NCBI RefSeq assembly: GCF_023093535.1
Contig: NZ_CP095757.1
Span: forward strand, 496,001-560,000
DNA length: 64,000 bases
Reading direction: 5' to 3'
Source: Halovivax limisalsi
GTDB lineage: Archaea > Halobacteriota > Halobacteria > Halobacteriales > Natrialbaceae
This document shows, piece after piece, positions 14,074 through 24,111 of this stretch (positions are counted from its first letter, which is position 1; the number at the start of each line of letters is the position of its first letter). The notes beneath the pieces are model-generated. The model searched no databases. It saw nothing but the letters and a program-made list of their open reading frames with translations, and had not been told where the DNA came from. The translations under genes were made by a program, and so were the position numbers.

Positions 14074-14207
14074 GCTCTCACCCCGTGATTGGATCCCTCA
14101 GACCGTTCCGAGACCGTTCGCCGTCGTCGTCCGGCTGTGACGTCGATCATATTCCTGGATTTCAGCCGGATCGATGATAACGCTGTCCCTCGATGGGATT
14201 TTTTGCC

Positions 14208-14330
14208 ACCGAACTATTCCGCGGCGGGTTCGCCTGCGGCGAACCACTTGCGGAAAATTTTCGATGAAAAAGGCCGCCTCCGCCGGCTTCGCCCGCTTCG
14301 GCGGTGAATCGCTCACTTCGTTCGCAAACA
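14208..14330 (+). repeat. Dispersed haloarchaeal repeat, copy A
   Basis: The copy begins CACCGAACTATTCCGCGGCG and continues through an 8-bp hairpin (GGTTCGCC-TGC-GGCGAACC). It then runs through the motif TTCGATGAAAAAGGCC, a GC-rich stem (CCGCCGGCTTCGCCCGCTTCGGCGG) and CTCACTTCGTTCGC. Copy B at 15178-15304 has the same order in inverted orientation; over the first 70 bases about nine of ten positions match. The copies bracket the lipoprotein gene at 14567. The rest of the 14074-14566 gap shows no gene. Confidence 0.75.
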
Positions 14331-14566
14331 GTAGTGCAGCGATTACGGGTCTGTTTAGACGACCAGTGTAACATGACCGTATATTATAGTTGATGTTATC
14401 AAAGCCATCCTGCTGGATCCAGAGGATAATACAGTAATCTGGCATCACGTATTCCGTGCGGTCCGAGCTGGATCAGTCGATCAAAAATTGTCGTGCTAGC
14501 CGACCAATCAATGATCGGTTTGCGTGTTTCAAGAAAGTTTTTATGCATACGATGAAGGGCGGGAAT

Positions 14567-14920
14567 ATGAAACGTCGCGCCGTTCTTGCTGCCAGCGGAG
14601 CCGCCTTCTCAACTGTTATGGCTGGCTGTTCAGTCATGAATACGGAGGACTTCCCTGATAATTGTGAACTGATACATGATGTAGGGGAGCCGTCGGAATT
14701 TGACGCACCCAGAGAAACGTACAGATACGAGAATTTGAGCAGGGAGGCCCGGCAAGTATTCGATGAGGCTCTTGTGGATGGCAGTTACTTTACCACAAAT
14801 CAAAGTTTGCGCTCCGAAGAACTCCGGTACGAGGGTATCAGGTCTATCTACCATATAATTTATGATAATGAAACTTATGGACTGGCAACGTATGTAAATG
14901 AAGGCTGCTACGGTCCGTAA
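14567..14920 (+). CDS. Small putative lipoprotein in an AT-rich patch
   Basis: The 117-residue protein starts MKRRAVLAASGAAFSTVMAGC, a twin-arginine-like signal followed by a lipobox (MAGC); Cys21 of this start would be lipidated. The mature part (ETYRYENLSREARQVFDEAL, then GIRSIYHIIYDNETYGLATYV) is not acidic in the usual way and I recognise no family. Codons here often end in A or T, unlike every neighbouring gene, so the gene probably came from elsewhere. It is enclosed by two inverted repeat copies (14208-14330 and 15178-15304). An in-frame ATG at 14552 is an alternative start. Confidence 0.65.
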   Translation: MKRRAVLAASGAAFSTVMAGCSVMNTEDFPDNCELIHDVGEPSEFDAPRETYRYENLSREARQVFDEALVDGSYFTTNQSLRSEELRYEGIRSIYHIIYDNETYGLATYVNEGCYGP

Positions 14921-15028
14921 AGGCGGCAGGTACCATCGACGGGAATTCCGGAGCGGGGCGAACGGTCAACCCTCAGCGACGCCGTAGGGCGCGCCGTCAG
15001 CCATTTTATCGACGTTTTTTGGTGTTGA

Positions 15029-15047
15029 GCGGGACCGAAGGTCCCGC
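15029..15047. repeat. Perfect hairpin next to a T-run
   Basis: GCGGGACC-GAA-GGTCCCGC forms an 8-bp stem with a 3-base loop. A run of six T lies at 15015-15020 on its left side. It could act as a terminator for the lipoprotein transcript, but the T-run precedes the stem on the plus strand, so that role is uncertain. Confidence 0.4.
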
Positions 15048-15177
15048 TGACCACGCGAACGGACGCTGCGCGCCCGCGAGCAGAGATGGGTTCGCCGAAG
15101 ACGCACCCGACGAAGAAGAAGTCGGTCCGCACGTTCAGGTATCGTTCGATACCATTGCGCGAGTACGACGGTCGAGC

Positions 15178-15304
15178 ATCCGAGCGAGCGGAGCGAGTGA
15201 GGTTCTCCGGGGGCGAGGCCGCAGGCCGAGCCACCGGCCTTTTTCATCGAAGTTTTTGCGCAAGCGGTTCGCCGTAGGCGAACCCGCCGCGGAAAAAGTT
15301 CGGT
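15178..15304 (-). repeat. Dispersed haloarchaeal repeat, copy B (inverted to copy A)
   Basis: Read on the minus strand from 15304 it begins CACCGAACTTTTTCCGCGGC and has the hairpin GGTTCGCC-TAC-GGCGAACC and the same TTCGATGAAAAAGGCC core. It then has a different GC stem and CTCACTCGCTCCGCTCGCTCG. It ends only 37 bases before the gene at 15341. The gap 14921-15340 holds this repeat, the hairpin at 15029 and no supportable gene. Confidence 0.75.
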
Positions 15305-15340
15305 GCTGACCCTTATGCCGCCCGGGCCCGTAGGCCGCGT

Positions 15341-15775: not shown

Positions 15776-15871
15776 GTCGCAACAATATCGCGTACGGGCC
15801 GTATCGAACGATATTTAGGGGTCTGGACCGGAATCGCAGAGACGCACGGTGCAGACCGTCTCCACGAGAAC

Positions 15872-15888
15872 ACATACATTTATTATGT
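15872..15888. promoter_or_regulatory. AT-rich hairpin upstream of orc1 (candidate unwinding element or promoter)
   Basis: ACATA-CATTTAT-TATGT is a 5-bp inverted repeat in a short AT-rich island. It lies 147 bases before the orc1 start and 112 bases before the ORB at 16000. It could be part of a DNA-unwinding element or the orc1 promoter. Confidence 0.35.
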
Positions 15889-15999
15889 AGCTGTTCATCT
15901 GGTTCGGCTGCATCAACTGGACGCTCGAAGAGATCTCGTTCGACACGATTCCGCTCTCGAGCGTCCCTCCAGGGGTATCAGACGGGAAACGGGCCACAC

Positions 16000-16021
16000 G
16001 TTCCAGCTGAAACGGAGGGGT
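16000..16021 (+). promoter_or_regulatory. ORB 1 (origin recognition box) upstream of orc1
   Basis: It reads GTTCCAGCTGAAACGGAGG followed by GGT, a full match to the haloarchaeal ORB pattern (TTCCAnnTGAAACnnnGGGGT). It ends 13 bases before the orc1 start codon, so binding of Orc1 there could also repress its own gene. Confidence 0.8.
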
Positions 16022-16034
16022 ACGCGTACGACGA

Positions 16035-17858
16035 ATGTCTGACGACGATTCACACGACCGACGTCCGACCGACCGCCCAGCCAGCGAATCGACGCCCGGC
16101 TTCCGGGCCGAACTCGATTCGTCGGAGATCGGCGGATCCGAGTCGAAACAGGGCCTGTTCGACGACCTGTTGAGCGGCGAGCCCATCTTCGAGAACAAGG
16201 AGGTCCTCAGACCGTCGTACACGCCCCACGAGTTGCCCCACCGATCCGATCAGATCAACAAGATGGCGACCATCCTCGTCGCGGCGCTCCGCGGCGAGAC
16301 GCCGTCGAACATCCTCATCTACGGAAAGACGGGGACCGGCAAGACCGCGAGCGCGAAGTTCGTCAGCAAGGAACTCGAGCAGACCTCCACGAAGTACAGC
16401 GTCCCCTGCGACGTCGAGTACATCAACTGCGAGGTGACCGACACGCAGTATCGCGTGCTCGCCCAGCTCGCGAATACGTTCATCGAGACCAACAGGGCCC
16501 GCATCGACGAACGGGTGGCCGAACTCGAGTCGCTGAAGGAGGCCGTCAGGGAGTACGAATCGGGCGCACCCGGCACCCGATCGGGCGAGCCAGCCCGAGA
16601 CGCGACCTCGAACGTCGAGGCGACAAACGGTGACGACGCGCCCGCTACGGACTCCGCAACGCAGACGTCGACGAATACCGCCGAGCACCGACAGTCGACG
16701 TGGTCGAGCGACGGGGATCCCGGAACCGGAGGTGGCGTTCCAGATGAAACGAAGGGCTCCGCGTCCGGCGATCGACCATCGGATCAGGTGGAGTCACAGA
16801 TCGATTCCTCGTCCAGTTCAACCCCAGATACCACGGCATCTGCAGGTGAAATAGAGGGGTTCCAGTCGCCAGACGAACCGGCCAACGACCACCCGTTCAC
16901 CGACACCGAGTTCACCACGGTCGAGGGCGTCGACGACAGGATCGAACAGCTGGAGGCAGATCGCGACTCCTTCGAGGACGTTCCGATGACCGGCTGGCCG
17001 ACCGATCGCGTCTACAGCGTCTTCTTCGACGCCGTCGACTACTCCGAACGAGTCGTCGTCATCATGCTCGACGAGATCGACAAGCTCGTCGAGAAGAGCG
17101 GCGACGATACGCTGTACAATCTCTCGCGGATGAACTCCGAGCTCGAGAACTCGCGCGTCTCGATCATGGGCATCTCGAACGACCTCAAGTTCACCGACTT
17201 CCTCGACCCGCGCGTGAAGTCCTCGCTCGGCGAGGAAGAGATCGTCTTCCCGCCGTACGACGCCAATCAGCTGCGCGATATCCTCCAGCATCGCTCGGAG
17301 GTGGCGTTCAAGGAGGGCGCGCTGACGTCGGACGTCATTCCCCTCTGTGCGGCGTTCGCCGCCCAGGAGCACGGCGACGCCCGACGTGCGCTCGACCTCC
17401 TCCGGACGGCGGGGGAACTGGCGGAGCGCTCCCAGACCGACACGGTCGTCGAAGAGCACGTCCGCCAGGCCCAGGACAAGATCGAACTCGACCGCGTCGT
17501 CGAGGTCGTCCGCACCCTGCCGACCCAGAGCAAGCTGGTCCTCTTCTCGATCATCCTGCTCGAGCAGCACGGCGTCCACAGCATCAACACCGGCGAGGTG
17601 TACAACATTTACAAGCGCCTGTGCAAGGAACTCGACACGGACGTCCTGACCCAGCGACGGGTCACCGATCTGATCAGCGAACTCGACATGCTCGGCATCG
17701 TCAACGCCGTCGTCGTCTCGAAGGGCCGCTACGGCCGCACCAAGGAGATCAGCCTCTCGGTTCCACTCGAAGAGACGGAGGTCGTGCTCCGCTCGGACTC
17801 CCGTCTCAGCGACATCGACGACGTCAAGCCCTTCGTCCAGGCCCGGTTCGACAACTGA
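16035..17858 (+). CDS. orc1: Replication initiator Orc1/Cdc6
   Basis: The 607-residue protein is an AAA+ initiator: Walker A GKTGTGKT at 97-104, Walker B VVIMLDEID at 341-349, sensor-1 MGISNDL and sensor-2 HGDARRALDLLR. A C-terminal winged helix follows (LPTQSKLVLFSIILLEQHGVHSINTGEVYNIYK...). A Ser-, Asp- and Thr-rich insert of roughly 110 residues (about 176-285) splits the AAA+ core between Walker A and Walker B. It looks disordered and its DNA carries two ORB-like sites. Orc1 binds ORBs and loads the MCM helicase. The neighbours (PolD1, oapABC, many ORBs) mark this as the initiator of the main origin. The ATG at 16035 lies just after an ORB. Confidence 0.96.
   Translation: MSDDDSHDRRPTDRPASESTPGFRAELDSSEIGGSESKQGLFDDLLSGEPIFENKEVLRPSYTPHELPHRSDQINKMATILVAALRGETPSNILIYGKTGTGKTASAKFVSKELEQTSTKYSVPCDVEYINCEVTDTQYRVLAQLANTFIETNRARIDERVAELESLKEAVREYESGAPGTRSGEPARDATSNVEATNGDDAPATDSATQTSTNTAEHRQSTWSSDGDPGTGGGVPDETKGSASGDRPSDQVESQIDSSSSSTPDTTASAGEIEGFQSPDEPANDHPFTDTEFTTVEGVDDRIEQLEADRDSFEDVPMTGWPTDRVYSVFFDAVDYSERVVVIMLDEIDKLVEKSGDDTLYNLSRMNSELENSRVSIMGISNDLKFTDFLDPRVKSSLGEEEIVFPPYDANQLRDILQHRSEVAFKEGALTSDVIPLCAAFAAQEHGDARRALDLLRTAGELAERSQTDTVVEEHVRQAQDKIELDRVVEVVRTLPTQSKLVLFSIILLEQHGVHSINTGEVYNIYKRLCKELDTDVLTQRRVTDLISELDMLGIVNAVVVSKGRYGRTKEISLSVPLEETEVVLRSDSRLSDIDDVKPFVQARFDN
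16737..16758 (+). promoter_or_regulatory. ORB 2, inside the orc1 linker
   Basis: GTTCCAGATGAAACGAAGGG followed by CT matches the ORB core but has a three-base G-tract. It encodes residues VPDETKG (235-241) of the disordered insert. Confidence 0.6.
16839..16860 (+). promoter_or_regulatory. ORB-like 3, inside the orc1 linker (weaker)
   Basis: TCTGCAGGTGAAATAGAGGG followed by GT keeps AGGTGAAAnnGAGGGGT but deviates in the TTCCA half. It is in the same orientation as ORB 2, 102 bases further on. Confidence 0.45.
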
Positions 17859-17916
17859 CGACGTTGGTGCTCGTCACGGACGTCTCCACTCGGGCGAGTT
17901 CGCGGGCCGATCCAGC

Positions 17917-17938
17917 ACCCCCTCGTTTCAACTCGAAT
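17917..17938 (-). promoter_or_regulatory. ORB 4, just downstream of orc1
   Basis: On the minus strand ATTCGAGTTGAAACGAGGGG followed by GT fits the ORB pattern. It lies in the 176-base gap between the convergent orc1 and signal peptidase genes. Confidence 0.65.
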
Positions 17939-18034
17939 CGTCGCTTTCGCTCGGCTGTGGCATCTCCGGGTCAGCAACCGGCGAGTGTCGGACATCCGGG
18001 CCGTGTCGGCGTCGTGATTCGTCTGGCGGACCGA

Positions 18035-18943
18035 TCACTGGCGGCGCGTCCGTCGGAGGCCGATCAGTACCAGTCCGGACGGTGCGACGACGCCGAGTAC
18101 CGGAACGGGACCGCTCGGGGCGGCGCCTGCGAGATCCGCGGTGGCGAACGTTTCGTCGACCGTCAGTCGGATGTGGCCGAGCCACGGGACGCGATACTTG
18201 GCTTTTCCCTCGATCCACGCCGGTTTGACGATGGACGTATCGGCACCCGCACCGGTCTGGTCGTAGCCGGTATTGGCGTCGCCGTAGGTGACGAAGCCGG
18301 CGTACGGAGCGGGACAGGTCGAGAGTTGCGAGCAGCTGCGGCCGTTCGTCAGCATGGGGTCGGCTTTGGTCGCGATCCAATTTTCACCCCGTTCGACCCA
18401 GAAGTGGGCCCGATGGATCACCGGCGTCCGCACCTCGGAGCCGCCCGGCCGGAAGATGATGACGTCGCCGGGGTTGCCGAAGCTCGTGTACCCGCTCTCG
18501 GCGCCCGTCTCGTAGGTGACGATTCCGGTGCCCTCGATGTAGCCGTCGCCGACGAATCGATCCTGCTCGACGACGAAGACCATGTCCCCGCGCTGCATGT
18601 GCGGTTCCATGCTTCCGCTCTCGACGGCGACCAGCGGCGGCCAGACGCCGCTGACGCCGAAGAGAATCAGGGCGATCAGGAGGACCAGCCCGACGCTCGT
18701 CACCAGATCGCGGACGTAGACGTACGGCGTCTCCTCCGTTCGCATGAACCAGCGTATGATGCCGTCGGATTCGATGCTGGCGTCCGAATCGTTCGCAGTC
18801 GATCGACCGTCGGTCGGCGCGCGCGAATTCGAATCGCTGGAGCGAGCCGGTCGATCGTCGGTATCGGGAGTCGACGATGCCGATTCCTCGGTCGACGGAC
18901 GGTCCGATCCATCCCGTGGCGGATCGGAACCGGTGTTGGTCAT
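18035..18943 (-). CDS. sec11: Signal peptidase I, archaeal/ER (Sec11) type
   Basis: The 302-residue protein has a disordered, Ser- and Asp-rich N-terminus of about 70 residues. A membrane helix (VTSVGLVLLIALILFGVSGVW) follows, then the catalytic serine in VESGSMEP (about residue 109). The conserved VIHRA histidine is near 176, and a TKADPMLTN box is the equivalent of KGDxN. The Ser-His-Asp arrangement is that of Sec11 rather than the bacterial Ser-Lys type. A C-terminal hydrophobic stretch (GPVPVLGVVAPSGLVLIGL) may be a second helix. It removes Sec signal peptides outside the membrane, and the giant secreted proteins in this window would be candidate substrates. The ATG at 18943 was chosen; the frame is open 51 bases further up. 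Confidence 0.9.
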   Translation of the reverse strand: MTNTGSDPPRDGSDRPSTEESASSTPDTDDRPARSSDSNSRAPTDGRSTANDSDASIESDGIIRWFMRTEETPYVYVRDLVTSVGLVLLIALILFGVSGVWPPLVAVESGSMEPHMQRGDMVFVVEQDRFVGDGYIEGTGIVTYETGAESGYTSFGNPGDVIIFRPGGSEVRTPVIHRAHFWVERGENWIATKADPMLTNGRSCSQLSTCPAPYAGFVTYGDANTGYDQTGAGADTSIVKPAWIEGKAKYRVPWLGHIRLTVDETFATADLAGAAPSGPVPVLGVVAPSGLVLIGLRRTRRQ

Positions 18944-19227
18944 TGCATCGCCGTACCCGGGGAACGAAAATGAACTTTCTGCTCTCGGCCGCACCTCCGA
19001 ACGGCACTGGTACTCGTCGGGAGGGTCCGCCCCCGTCGGTCCACAGCACCGTCAGCCACGGCACGACCATCGCCCGCGACCATCGCCCACCCGTTGTTCC
19101 ACGTCACCACCGACCGTCACCGGTGTCGGTCAGGTGGCCGGGCTCCGTCCGACACGGTTGAACCGGTCGCACGTCGCGACGGTCCGGGATGCAATACGTT
19201 TTTGCACCTGCTCGCGAAGTCGGTTGT

Positions 19228-20946
19228 GTGCCACTCGAGGGATCGGCCCGGATCGTCCAACGACTGACGAGCTGCGGCTTCAACGTCGAACGCGAGGCCG
19301 TGACGCTCATCGCGGGATCGGCCGACCCGTCCCGCACGGTCGATCGCCTCGTCGAGGAACTCGACGACGACGTCCTCGTCATCGCCACAGCCGACGTGCG
19401 CGCGATTCTGGAGACCGGTCTCGAAACCGAGGCCGAGGCAGCGTCCCCGACTCGCTCGGACGCTGCTCTCGCAACCGACACCGACGACCCCACCGATCGG
19501 GAGGCTCGGCCCACCGGAGCGACACCCGATGGTGGCGACGTCCGCGCCGAGCCTTCGCCGTCCGCCGACGGGCACGACGACCCCTCTATTTCAACTGGAA
19601 CGACACCCCCCGACGGGGATTCGTCGGCTGCCTCTCCACCTGAAACGGAGGGGGTTCGCGAGCCGTCGAGTGATCGATCGTCGTCGGACGAGGACCGCTC
19701 GACTTCGGCACCCGACTTCGAACGGTCCGGCGAGACGGACGCACGGTCGGTCGAGATCGAGGGGGACATGACCGGCCAGAGCACCGGGACCGGAGCGTAC
19801 CGCGATTTCGTGACGGTCTTTCGCGATCGCCTCGAACGACTCGGGTCGAAACTCCGCGGCCGGGTCAATCACCGACCGGCGTCCTCGATCGAATCGATGC
19901 CGGGCGGGAGCGACGTGGCGATGGTCGGACTGGTCAACGACGTCCGCTCGACGGCCAGCGGCCACTGGCTGGTCGAACTCGAGGACACGACCGGGACGTT
20001 CCCGTTTCTCGTGATGAAAGACCGCGACTTCGCCGGCCTCGTCGACGAGTTGCTCTGCGACGAGGTCCTCGCGATGGAAGGGACCCTCGCCGACGATTCC
20101 GGCATCGCGTTCGTCGATTCGATCCACTTCCCCGACGTCCCGCGCACGCACGAACCCTCGACCGCGGATCGCCACGTCCAGGCGGCGCTGATCAGCGACG
20201 TCCACGTCGGGAGCGAGGAGTTCATGGCCGGCGCCTGGAACCGGTTCGCGGAGTGGTTGCATTCGGAGGCGGCCCAACACGTCGAGTACCTCTGCATCGC
20301 GGGCGACATGGTCGAAGGCGTCGGCATCTATCCCGACCAGGACGAGGAACTCGACATCGTCGACATCTACGACCAGTACGAGGCGTTCAACGAGCACCTC
20401 AAACGCGTGCCGGGCGACCTCGAGATCGTCATGATTCCGGGCAACCACGACGCCGTCCGACTCGCGGAACCCCAGCCGGGATTCGACGAGGAACTGCGAT
20501 CGATCATGTCGGCTCACGACGCGCGGATTTCGAGCAACCCGTCGGTCGTGGATCTCGAAGGGGTCTCGATCCTCATGTACCACGGCGTCTCGCTCGACGA
20601 AGTGATCGCGGAGTTACCCGCCGAATCCGCGAGCTACGACGAGCCGCACAAAGCGATGTACCAGTTGCTGAAGAAGCGCCACGTCGCGCCGCAGTTCGGC
20701 GGGCACACCCGCCTGGCTCCGGAAGAGCGCGATTACCTGGTCATCGAGGACGTGCCGGATATCTTCCACACCGGTCACGTTCACAAACTCGGCTTCGGGA
20801 AGTACCACGACGTCCTCGCGATCAACTCCGGCTGCTGGCAGGCCCAGACTGACTTCCAGAAGAGCGTCAACATCGATCCTGACGCCGGATTCGCCCCGAT
20901 CGTCGACCTGGACACGCTCGACGTGACGGTTCAGAAGTTTCGCTAA
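19228..20946 (+). CDS. polD1: DNA polymerase D small subunit (DP1), 3'-5' exonuclease
   Basis: The protein has 572 residues from a GTG at 19228. Homology begins with PLEGSARIVQRLTSCGFN, and a TATA-like TACGTTTTTGCA lies about 25-30 bases upstream, so the earlier ATG at 19189 is less likely. After an N-terminal helical domain, a Ser-, Asp- and Pro-rich linker runs to about residue 200. An OB fold follows (VAMVGLVNDVRSTASGHWLVELED), then the Mre11-like phosphoesterase core: LISDVHVGSEEF, IAGDMVEGVG, MIPGNHD, GGHTRLAPE and HTGHVHK. DP1 is the proofreading subunit of the archaeal replicative polymerase PolD. Its linker DNA contains an inverted pair of ORBs (19580 and 19634). Confidence 0.94.
   Translation: MPLEGSARIVQRLTSCGFNVEREAVTLIAGSADPSRTVDRLVEELDDDVLVIATADVRAILETGLETEAEAASPTRSDAALATDTDDPTDREARPTGATPDGGDVRAEPSPSADGHDDPSISTGTTPPDGDSSAASPPETEGVREPSSDRSSSDEDRSTSAPDFERSGETDARSVEIEGDMTGQSTGTGAYRDFVTVFRDRLERLGSKLRGRVNHRPASSIESMPGGSDVAMVGLVNDVRSTASGHWLVELEDTTGTFPFLVMKDRDFAGLVDELLCDEVLAMEGTLADDSGIAFVDSIHFPDVPRTHEPSTADRHVQAALISDVHVGSEEFMAGAWNRFAEWLHSEAAQHVEYLCIAGDMVEGVGIYPDQDEELDIVDIYDQYEAFNEHLKRVPGDLEIVMIPGNHDAVRLAEPQPGFDEELRSIMSAHDARISSNPSVVDLEGVSILMYHGVSLDEVIAELPAESASYDEPHKAMYQLLKKRHVAPQFGGHTRLAPEERDYLVIEDVPDIFHTGHVHKLGFGKYHDVLAINSGCWQAQTDFQKSVNIDPDAGFAPIVDLDTLDVTVQKFR
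19580..19601 (-). promoter_or_regulatory. ORB 5, inside the polD1 linker
   Basis: On the minus strand GTTCCAGTTGAAATAGAGGG followed by GT is a near-ideal ORB. On the plus strand it encodes PSISTGT in the disordered linker of DP1. Confidence 0.7.
19634..19655 (+). promoter_or_regulatory. ORB 6, inside the polD1 linker
   Basis: CTCCACCTGAAACGGAGGGG followed by GT fits the ORB pattern and encodes PPETEGV. With ORB 5 it forms an inverted pair with the G-tracts pointing outward and 32 bases between the boxes. Confidence 0.7.
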
Positions 20947-21235
20947 GCGTCGATCGCTGGTGACCCGTCGCTGTCGGCGGTGATCGCCGAGCCGTGACGA
21001 CGAACAGCGACACCGATCTTCCCAGATTGCATCTCTATGCGGAGGTCGATTTCGCTTCGAGTTGCCGTGTGACTTCCCGACCGATCACCTGACGGTGACC
21101 TCGATGGACGCTGGCGGACGATCGTGACGGCGATCAGGCCGGCGGCCATAGATACGGCCGATCCGTGGAATCGGTTCGGACGCGAACATATCGGATGGAT
21201 CGGAGTTGGATGTCGGCCGATCACTGGAGCCCCCC

Positions 21236-21257
21236 ACCCCTTCGTTTCGATTGGAGC
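21236..21257 (-). promoter_or_regulatory. ORB 7, left side of the gene-free gap
   Basis: On the minus strand GCTCCAATCGAAACGAAGGG followed by GT fits the ORB with one change in the half-site (TCGAAAC for TTGAAAC). It is preceded by a C-run on the plus strand. Confidence 0.7.
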
Positions 21258-21620
21258 GTCAAACCCCACCGACCGGCGAGAGGAGTATTGAAAACAGCAA
21301 ATTATATGTGTATGGTACAGAAACGATATCCGCAGTACGAGGAACGTACGTGGATGTGTCTAGATGCTGGTTTGTTGTTGGTTGGATTCGCCACCCAGTC
21401 GCGTTCTCGAAGCGTCGTTTCCCTCCTGATCTATTACATGTTCGCCGATAGTCACATTTGTTCAGTTGGGACGGATTCCGACCCAATACTTCGTTTCCGA
21501 GGTTTTCGAGTGAACGTTTCCGCTGGACGCACTCACGAGCCGCTCCTGACCACGCAACTGCATTCGACCCTGCTTCCGTCATCGGTTCTCCGGCCCGGCT
21601 CGCGTCCGGACGATCATTCT

Positions 21621-21642
21621 GTTCCAGTTGAAATGGAGGGGT
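21621..21642 (+). promoter_or_regulatory. ORB 8, right side of the gene-free gap
   Basis: GTTCCAGTTGAAATGGAGGG followed by GT is a near-ideal ORB, and a further G-run (GGGGG) follows. It forms an inverted pair with ORB 7 across the AT-richer core. Confidence 0.75.
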
Positions 21643-22097
21643 GGGGGATTCACACCGGCCGGCGGATGCAGTACGGCCGACATCGATCGACCGGTCCCAT
21701 CGATCGATAGACACTGGATCGACACCCGATGCTCCGGAGCAACTGACGGCAATCAATCGTGAACGTTCCGTTTCATTTCCAGGCTCCGTTCGGTTAATCG
21801 GCCAGCTGATCGATCCCGTTGCTCGCTCCGACCACTCCGACCAAGCACTCGATCCACTCACCGATCTCCTTCCTTGCTCCACGCACCCCGATCCGCTTGC
21901 TCGATCCACTCGCTCCGCCGATCACCGGCACCGCCCAACAACGATACGCAAGAGCTCGGTCCAGTGGGTCGGATTCCGGCACTGTCTCCCTATTTCGTCG
22001 ACCGTCGTCCGCTCACAAAATGTCTGACGTAGGCTTAAGTGCGCTCGAAACGCTTTTTTTCGCAGCACGCACTCGCGGGTGCTGGAGGTTCCCACAA

Positions 22098-22736
22098 ATG
22101 GGACTGTTACAAGGACTCAAAGATAGTATCTCTCGGGCGACCGATCGCCTCTTCTCGGAGCAGGAGCCAAAGCGGATCGGTATTTACGGCCCGCCGAACG
22201 CCGGAAAGACGACCCTCGCGAATCGTATCGCTCGCGACTGGACGGGCGACGCGATCGGGACGGAGAGCCACATTCCGCACGAAACGCGACGCGCCCGTCG
22301 CAAGGAAGGCGTCGAGATCGAGCGCAACGGCAAGACGGTGACGATTGACATCGTCGACACGCCGGGCGTGACGACGAAGGTGGACTACGAGGAGTTCACC
22401 GACGAGATGGACAAGGACGACGCCGTTCGGCGCTCTCGCGAGGCGACCGAGGGCGTCGCCGAGGCGATGCACTGGCTTCGCGAGGACGTCGACGGCGTCA
22501 TCTACGTCCTCGACAGCGCGCAGGATCCGATCACGCAAGTCAACACGATGCTGATCGGGATCATCGAATCCCGCGATCTGCCGGTACTCATCTTCGCGAA
22601 CAAGATTGACCTCGACGAGTCGTCGGTCAAACGAATCGAGGACGCCTTCCCGCAGCACCAGACCGTGGCGCTCTCGGCGAAGGAAGGGGACAACATGGAC
22701 GAAGTGTACGACAACATCGCGGAGTACTTCGGGTGA
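22098..22736 (+). CDS. oapA: Era-like GTPase, origin-associated protein OapA
   Basis: The 212-residue protein has the G motifs of a small TRAFAC GTPase: GPPNAGKTT at 31-39 (G1), DIVDTPGVTTK near 90 (G3), FANKIDLDE near 168 (G4) and ALSAKEGDN (G5). The next two genes encode OapB and OapC. The three genes together are the conserved origin-associated set described beside the main origin of Haloferax volcanii. Its molecular role is not established; a link to replication is inferred from position. I chose the ATG at 22098 because homology begins MGLLQGLKDSI; the open frame upstream runs through the intergenic gap. OapB starts 3 bases after the stop. Confidence 0.88.
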   Translation: MGLLQGLKDSISRATDRLFSEQEPKRIGIYGPPNAGKTTLANRIARDWTGDAIGTESHIPHETRRARRKEGVEIERNGKTVTIDIVDTPGVTTKVDYEEFTDEMDKDDAVRRSREATEGVAEAMHWLREDVDGVIYVLDSAQDPITQVNTMLIGIIESRDLPVLIFANKIDLDESSVKRIEDAFPQHQTVALSAKEGDNMDEVYDNIAEYFG

Positions 22737-22739
22737 ACC

Positions 22740-23132
22740 ATGCCACAGGCGAAACAACCCGATAACGGCGACGGCGTGCAGATCGACCTCGTCAGCGGCG
22801 AGCGCATGGAGGGCCTGACGAGCATGGAGAAGATCCGGCTGATCTTAGACGGCGTCCACGACGGCAACATCGTCATCCTCGAAGAAGGACTCTCACCCGA
22901 CGAGGAGAGCAAGCTCATCGAGGTGACGATGGCGGAGATCAGCCCCGACGAGTTCAACGGGATCGAGATCGAGACCTATCCCCGGTCGGAGTCGCGCGAC
23001 GCCTCGTTCATCAGCCGACTCGTCGGGAACGAGCAACCGGCGGCCAAACTCACCGTCATCGGTCCGGCCAACCAGATCGAGACGCTCCACAAGGACGAGA
23101 CGCTCATCAGCGCACTCGTCTCTCGCAAGTAG
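22740..23132 (+). CDS. oapB: DUF2073 family protein, origin-associated protein OapB
   Basis: The 130-residue acidic protein has the DUF2073 pattern: GVQIDLVSGERMEGLTSMEKIRLILDGV, GNIVILEEGLSPDEESKLIEVTM, then a C-terminal LTVIGPANQIETLHKDETLISALVS. It starts 3 bases after oapA and ends 1 base before oapC, so the three form one operon. No catalytic motif is visible. The family is restricted to archaea and always sits in this context as far as I know; the function is unknown. Confidence 0.85.
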   Translation: MPQAKQPDNGDGVQIDLVSGERMEGLTSMEKIRLILDGVHDGNIVILEEGLSPDEESKLIEVTMAEISPDEFNGIEIETYPRSESRDASFISRLVGNEQPAAKLTVIGPANQIETLHKDETLISALVSRK

Positions 23133-23133
23133 G

Positions 23134-23886
23134 ATGCCCCACCAGTGTACGACCTGCGACCGACGCTTTCCCGACGGCTCGAAGGAGATGCTCTCGGGGT
23201 GTCCCGATTGCGGGGGGAACAAGTTCCAGTTCGCACCCGCGAACAGAGCCGATTCGAGCGAGGACGCCGAATCGAGCGAGACGGCCGGACCGGGTTCGGC
23301 CGCCGAACCGGAGGCGTCTGCGACTTCAGATGCTCGCGAGTGGCCGGCGACGGCGCGTCGCCCCGCCGAACGGGACGTCGACCCGACCGATCGTGCCGAC
23401 GATTCGGCACACCCAGCCGTCGACTCGTCACGTCGAGCCGACGAGTCCGCGAGCGACCGCGACGATGCGATGGCGGACGAGTTCGAGTGGGTGGACGGTG
23501 ACGAGGACACCGCGCAGGCGAGCGCACGGTCCGACGTCGTCTCGCCTGATGAACTCCCGACCCGATCCGCCGACGTACATTCGACCGACGATCCCCAGTC
23601 CCGCGACGATCGAGGCCATTCGGACGCAGCCGCCGGCGACGAGGTGGAACCAGCTGATCCGCCGGGATCCGGGCGCGTCGTCAGCGAACCGTCGCCCGAC
23701 CAACCTTCGATCGAACAGCTTCGCGAGGAACTCAACGACCAGTTCGAGAGTATCAAGATCGTCAGTCCGGGCCAGTACGAACTCAACCTCATGGAACTGT
23801 ACGATCGCGAGGAGCACATCGTCTCCCTCCAGGAGGACGGTCGCTACGTCATCAACGTCCCCGATTCCTGGCACAGTGACGAGTGA
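23134..23886 (+). CDS. oapC: Zinc-ribbon protein, origin-associated protein OapC
   Basis: The 250-residue protein opens with a zinc ribbon (CTTC at residues 5-8, CPDC at about 23-26) followed by GGNKFQF. A long disordered, Ser-, Asp- and Ala-rich stretch follows (about 35-185). The last 60 residues form a compact domain (SIEQLREELNDQFESIKIVSPGQYELNLMELYDREEHIVSLQEDGRYVINVPDSW). The ribbon suggests contact with nucleic acid or with a replication partner. It is the third gene of the oap operon. Right after it come two ORBs in inverted orientation. Confidence 0.85.
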   Translation: MPHQCTTCDRRFPDGSKEMLSGCPDCGGNKFQFAPANRADSSEDAESSETAGPGSAAEPEASATSDAREWPATARRPAERDVDPTDRADDSAHPAVDSSRRADESASDRDDAMADEFEWVDGDEDTAQASARSDVVSPDELPTRSADVHSTDDPQSRDDRGHSDAAAGDEVEPADPPGSGRVVSEPSPDQPSIEQLREELNDQFESIKIVSPGQYELNLMELYDREEHIVSLQEDGRYVINVPDSWHSDE

Positions 23887-24007: not shown

Positions 24008-24029
24008 ACCCCTCCATTTCAACTGGAAC
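24008..24029 (-). promoter_or_regulatory. ORB 9, downstream of oapC
   Basis: On the minus strand GTTCCAGTTGAAATGGAGGG followed by GT is a near-ideal ORB and almost identical to ORB 8. It lies in the 489-base gap 23887-24375, which otherwise holds only ORB 10. Confidence 0.75.
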
Positions 24030-24089: not shown

Positions 24090-24111
24090 GTTCCAGAGGA
24101 AACGAAGGGGT
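24090..24111 (+). promoter_or_regulatory. ORB 10, downstream of oapC
   Basis: GTTCCAGAGGAAACGAAGGG followed by GT fits the ORB with one half-site change. With ORB 9 it makes an outward-facing pair separated by 60 bases. Confidence 0.65.

Follow-up and report, generated by a model that had tools for sequence, protein, structure and literature searches.

A putative oriC1 core between polD1 and oapA

The gap that separates the stop of polD1 from the start of oapA (20947-22097 of the window, the whole stretch of 64,000 nucleotides of Halovivax limisalsi DNA analysed) most likely holds the haloarchaeal oriC1 core, parted from its initiator gene by an inversion and served by Orc1 acting in trans. 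We give this reading a probability of about 0.8, and from sequence comparison we infer that the gap fires as an origin. The earlier note had placed the origin here rather than upstream of orc1; comparative evidence supports the placement, the gap being orthologous to the oriC1 core of other haloarchaea. The locus comprises orc1 (16035-17858, + strand), a signal-peptidase-like gene (ORF 18035-18994, - strand), polD1 (19189-20946, + strand, Pfam DNA_pol_E_B) and oapA, oapB and oapC (22098-23886, + strand), for which Pfam gives a GTPase in oapA and identifies OapB and OapC by name. For polD1 and oapA we follow the naming of the earlier note, and the ORF at 18035-18994 is labelled signal-peptidase-like without a Pfam match. 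The left neighbours were labelled by us gnat, without Pfam match, and aspK, with AA_kinase and ACT domains.

An outward-facing ORB pair around an AT-richer core had been described in the gap and is confirmed. The left ORB with its extended G-string covers 21231-21256 on the - strand (ORB 21236-21256, 3 mismatches to the 21-mer consensus) and the right one 21622-21647 on the + strand (ORB 21622-21642, 2 mismatches); the extended halophile G-string GGGGTGGGGG is present at both. The candidate unwinding region between them (21257-21621) has 53.2% GC, against 66.7% in the window and a median of 50.1% in the cores of relatives, and its lowest 100 bp fall to 40%, a level reached at 0.17% of window positions. 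A profile built from 70 cores from outside Halovivax matches 21228-21648 on the + strand (E=6e-18). The core is separated from oapA by 867 bp and lies 5.2 kb from the orc1 start, away from the usual place beside orc1/cdc6A.

ORBs were searched with a hand-entered 21-mer consensus, allowing up to 3 mismatches unless stated otherwise. The window has eight, all within 16.0-24.1 kb, versus none in 100 dinucleotide shuffles, and the whole single-contig genome of 3,894,819 bases has 11, eight of them in the window, while the reversed-pattern control gives none. When the extended G-string is included in the pattern, only the gap pair matches across the genome at up to 2 mismatches; one more site, at 982 kb, is gained at 3.

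The layout of ORBs, G-strings and AT-rich middle is the one reported for the minimal origin of Haloarcula hispanica, oriC1-cdc6A, which in the available text of PMC3936714 has two inverted ORBs, each with an extended halophile G-string, that enclose an AT-rich region. There, deletion of either ORB impairs replication, mutation of either G-string abolishes it, and a G-rich inner inverted repeat acts as an enhancer outside the minimal definition. The Halovivax core differs from the origin described in those parts of the paper in its position, past polD1 and 5.2 kb away from the start of orc1, and in that the inner repeat was not seen when 21257-21621 was read by eye. Haloarcula salina (L171) has a layout like that of H. 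hispanica between orc1 and oapA.

Some observations count against the gap as an origin. The inner repeat is not seen, other Orc paralogues are encoded in the genome, and the gap ORBs are imperfect, with 2-3 mismatches in the window and 5 in the second arm in H. asiaticus and in genome G002. GC skew is flat: the check proposed in the earlier note, made on 38 stretches of 20 kb across the genome (three from the window), gives no clear extremum. Dependence of H. hispanica origins on a co-located cdc6 gene, stated in the available text of PMC3936714, also counts against the gap, though it is compatible with action in trans. The ORBs and the central motif described below are nevertheless retained in all five Halovivax, while most of the gap aligns poorly. 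Close to oapA, the block GTCTGACGTAGGCTTAAGTG (22022-22041, + strand) is identical in all five Halovivax and keeps 19 of its 20 bases in Haloarcula salina L171; it is probably the oapA promoter.

Inversion of the orc1-polD1 block in Halovivax

Gene positions were obtained by tblastn in loci around oapA, in two locus sets that overlap and whose relatives are non-independent. Outside the genus, 29 of 35 oapA-bearing Natrialbaceae loci (set 1) have orc1 on the minus strand to the left of oapA, and in the other six (L045, L051, L062, L065, L067, L072) orc1 is absent from the fetched stretch. Set 2 has 100 loci, 20 from the same order and 80 from named organisms: orc1 is on the minus strand in 90, on the plus strand in one (L093, from the H. 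asiaticus contig that also gave L008) and absent from the stretch in nine (L073, L076, L078, L101, L106, L110, L115, L136, L146), some of which end at contig ends. All five Halovivax have orc1 on the plus strand and polD1 adjoining oapA. Halovivax sp. KZCA124 of NCBI (L105), placed in a different genus by the taxonomy used, has the canonical gene order. The canonical order also occurs at loci of other families, which makes that of Halovivax the derived one. The ancestral layout, judged from these comparisons, is the one with oriC1 between divergent orc1 and oapA found in other haloarchaea.

Gene order in relatives and the profile limits delimit the inverted block, with orc1, the signal-peptidase-like gene and polD1, to 15776-20946, and we infer breakpoints within 15776-15878 and 20947-21228. 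The core profile also matches the other four Halovivax near oapA (E 4e-15 to 2e-12, two of the four matches covering part of the model only); its remaining matches are less strong and fall mostly on ORBs. A second profile, from 76 orc1-upstream stretches outside the genus, matches 15878-16061 (E=4.4e-24), which defines the region that moved with orc1 (15878-16034, + strand), and it also matches upstream of orc1 in the other four Halovivax. Since the two profiles match separate places, the break separates the orc1-proximal ORB from the core. Comparison thus shows an old inversion in which the core remained beside oapA; the orc1 promoter and one plain ORB moved away with orc1. By splitting the start site from the initiator gene, it puts the likely origin about 5 kb from the usual search place.

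The region upstream of orc1

The description of this region in the earlier note as one ORB and a tiny AT-rich island holds: the single ORB is at 16001-16021 (+ strand, consensus search) and the island, 35 bp with 31% GC, at 15866-15900. Its demotion to a lesser site is likewise sustained, its match to the ancestral intergenic region, from which the core also derives, being confined to the promoter part near orc1. An ORB with up to 5 mismatches is found within 160 bp upstream of orc1 in 41 of 60 Natrialbaceae loci, most commonly at -34 and never with the extended G-string, and in 13 of 41 loci of other families. By this distribution the orc1-proximal ORB is old.

The active origin could still lie upstream of orc1 (15.78-16.03 kb), leaving the gap as a decaying remnant of the inversion. 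Origins are usually upstream of an orc1/cdc6 gene, according to the available parts of PMC3528665 and PMC4595724, and the region does have an ORB and a short AT island. However, this ORB is single and lacks the extended G-string in 5/5 Halovivax, the core profile gives only an ORB-length match there, the central motif is absent, and five species have retained the core in the gap. We leave this possibility a very slight chance; as main origin the site was rejected on ORB count, G-string, profile and motif evidence.

In the same region, a block of about 37 bp (window 15878-15930) is nearly identical across all five Halovivax and may belong to the promoter or leader of orc1.

A motif at fixed distance from one ORB

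About 60-72 bp inward from one of its ORBs, the core carries the motif AACARTATCCGYA. In the window it reads GAAACGATATCCGCA (21320-21334, + strand), 63 bp inside the left ORB, and is the only zero-mismatch match of the degenerate motif pattern in the genome; the motif was not found upstream of orc1. With a 15-position matrix built from 50 Natrialbaceae training sites, the distance between the best site and the ORB that it faces is 60-72 bp in 65 of 71 training-family loci (154/3550 shuffles), in 34 of 42 loci of other families (162/2100) and in 5/5 Halovivax (5/250), shuffle counts that are not probabilities because the loci are related, some are duplicates and two-base blocks were shuffled. 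Either ORB can be faced, eight of the 34 other-family loci being reversed. In the 42 loci from outside the family, mismatches are often 4-6 and number at least 4 in 26, so that the position of the motif is better kept than its letters. Genus g24 has a degenerate version, at least 4 mismatches from the hand-entered form.

The motif might instead be the promoter of an untranslated or unannotated gap transcript and not a replication element. Some 15-20 bp upstream of it stands a TTTAT block, which we take to resemble a haloarchaeal TATA box. Against this, its position is tied to the ORB in either orientation, as the 34/42 loci outside the family with their eight reversals illustrate, and an Rfam search of 14.0-24.5 kb gave no match; we consider a promoter unlikely, if worth weighing. 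We prefer a role in replication, in which the conserved motif may be a second requirement for starting.

With its place inside the unwinding region, flanked by two inverted ORBs, this short conserved motif recalls ucm, the central motif that is required at a Sulfolobus origin and bound by UBP in the available text of PMC12141716. The haloarchaeal motif differs in standing at a fixed distance from one ORB and not midway, and the parallel is one of analogy alone. No such spaced motif is mentioned for H. hispanica oriC1 in the available part of PMC3936714. A literature search of titles and abstracts, with few subscription papers, found no Halovivax origin split, haloarchaeal central motif or ORBs inside polD1.

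Separation of core and orc1 in other lineages

Of 129 distinct regions upstream of oapA, 118 have an outward G-string pair, and all of the 81 family genomes examined have one or more strong G-string ORBs (control 0). The placement table leaves out six of the 81 (G107, G113, G118, G119, G120, G122), with G059 added separately. Of the 76 family genomes with a placed pair, 63 have orc1 within 3 kb of it; G032, counted as distant in the table, is taken as adjacent on the circle because its orc1 sits at the other contig end. The non-adjacent 12 are the five Halovivax, G059, G060, G110, G111, G112, G114 and G117. The distance from orc1 to the core is 158-159 kb in G059 and G060, and from 147 kb to 1.34 Mb in the last five. 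In G059, the core profile matches the oapA side only and the orc1 profile the orc1 side only; G025 and G120 have their core on the side of orc1. The five genomes of genus g24 (L209-L213) have a full core at a third place, with nine marker genes including orc1 absent within about 5 kb. With Halovivax and two further unlinked lineages, the core is kept apart from orc1 in at least three separate lineages.

These splits bear on the idea that both places act together, Orc1 at the orc1-proximal and satellite ORBs looping to the gap so that 16.0-24.1 kb forms one extended origin. Eight ORBs lie within 8.1 kb, with only three elsewhere in the genome, and the satellite ORBs are conserved in relatives. 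The distances in G059 and G060 and in g24 (at least 147 kb) show, however, that proximity is not required there, and we regard an extended origin as distinctly unlikely.

A main origin elsewhere, at another orc paralogue, with oriC1 dormant in this species, is harder still to credit. The genome has two further Orc-like genes, at 265-266 kb and 1.48 Mb, the flat GC skew suits such an arrangement, and dormant origins are known in Haloferax mediterranei in the available part of PMC4595724. Against it stand the presence of the core in all 81 family genomes, as judged by the strong G-string ORB, and its conservation in all five Halovivax.

Loss of oriC1 in genus g24, suspected since neither the orc1 nor the oapA side had a core, was discarded when genome searches found the pair at the third site. 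The g24 core centre has several copies of CTAGTAAC or TTACTAG. In Salinarchaeum laminariae (L146), sec11-polD1 lies beside oapA, orc1 gives no match and the 327-bp gap lacks an ORB pair; by its gene order this is another rearranged oriC1 locus. In G110, G113, G115, G121 and L067 the oapA homologues align to the query as two segments (1-40 and 37-212), separated by about 1.4 kb in a single open frame of about 700 aa, suggestive of an intein or another kind of insertion at the GTPase P-loop.

ORBs within coding sequences

Six ORBs of the window were absent from the earlier note. Four are in or next to genes of the inverted block: 16738-16758 (+) within orc1, 17917-17937 (-) immediately downstream of it, and a divergent pair within polD1 formed by 19580-19600 (-) and 19634-19653 (+), the latter a ninth window ORB with 4 mismatches. 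The other two, 24008-24028 (-) and 24091-24111 (+), form a divergent pair downstream of oapC. All come from the consensus search.

At up to 4 mismatches, at least one ORB is found in 61 of 70 Natrialbaceae polD1 genes (Halovivax included) and in 29 of 39 from other families; the counts leave out matched stretches of less than 900 bases, those containing N or internal stops, and exact duplicates. The totals, 110 and 44, compare with means of 2.1 and 1.25 in 20 permutations of synonymous codons within each gene, the largest permuted total being 5 in each group. The usual pair is divergent with 56 bp spacing (45 Natrialbaceae and 14 other-family cases). Synonymous shuffling rules out that a conserved protein motif alone accounts for these ORBs, even though their reading frame does not vary and peptides such as PVETEG and PSVSTG turn up repeatedly. 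The pair is kept at synonymous sites. The orc1 coding sequence has an ORB in 32 of 75 Natrialbaceae genes and in 0 of 41 others, and among control genes, given for the same two groups, ORBs are found in 0/48 and 0/26 for aspK and in 2/52 and 0/2 for oapC.

Conserved initiator boxes outside the origin recall oriC2D of H. hispanica, an ORB-rich region near an origin that is proposed, in the available text of PMC3936714, to titrate the initiator; extra ORBs near an origin are present in Halovivax too. Unlike that region as described there, the conserved pair is inside the polD1 coding sequence, has mostly 56-bp spacing and resembles oriC1 ORBs. Titration is a candidate role.

A model for initiation

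In the mechanism that we favour, Orc1, encoded 5.2 kb away as counted from its start codon, would act in trans, binding the two outward ORBs through their extended G-strings, opening the AT-rich centre and loading MCM there. The single ORB at orc1 would serve autoregulation, and those in polD1, in orc1 and after oapC would be Orc1-bound accessory or titration sites. The central motif would be a further element at fixed distance from one ORB. Action of an initiator in trans has a precedent in oriC10 of Natrinema sp. J7 (plasmid pFJ6), which works without an adjacent cdc6; in the available part of PMC5350488 it is not identified as oriC1 and no inversion is described.

More tentatively, at slightly less than even odds, oriC1 could be a portable unit needing neither orc1 nor oapA beside it and composed of two G-string ORBs with AACARTATCCGYA some 60-72 bp inside one of them. 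The motif would give the unit polarity and be the site of a second factor or of first unwinding, as a counterpart of ucm; the initiator would also bind the polD1 ORB pairs, under silent-site selection, in a conserved control circuit. Origin prediction that searches only beside orc1/cdc6 would miss or misplace oriC1 in Halovivax, some Natrinema and genus g24. As these natural splits part the origin from the initiator gene, the role of linkage becomes testable, and the spaced motif and the polD1 ORBs are defined targets for mutagenesis in tractable haloarchaea.

Other features of the window

The divergent pair about 80 bp apart downstream of oapC is found in four of the five Halovivax (the window, L008, L010 and L011, in the last three near +1.9 to +2.1 kb of oapA), while L009 has one ORB; single ORBs are near this position in some other genera. 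The earlier description of the polD1-oapA gap as the longest gene-free stretch is doubtful, 14074-15340 being longer by a crude ORF call (1267 versus 1073 bp), although it contains a 154-aa ORF. This gene-poor and AT-richer stretch (to 53% GC per kb) has a 92-nt inverted repeat of 78% identity (14217-14308 and 15203-15294) flanking the ORF, and is possibly a small mobile element.
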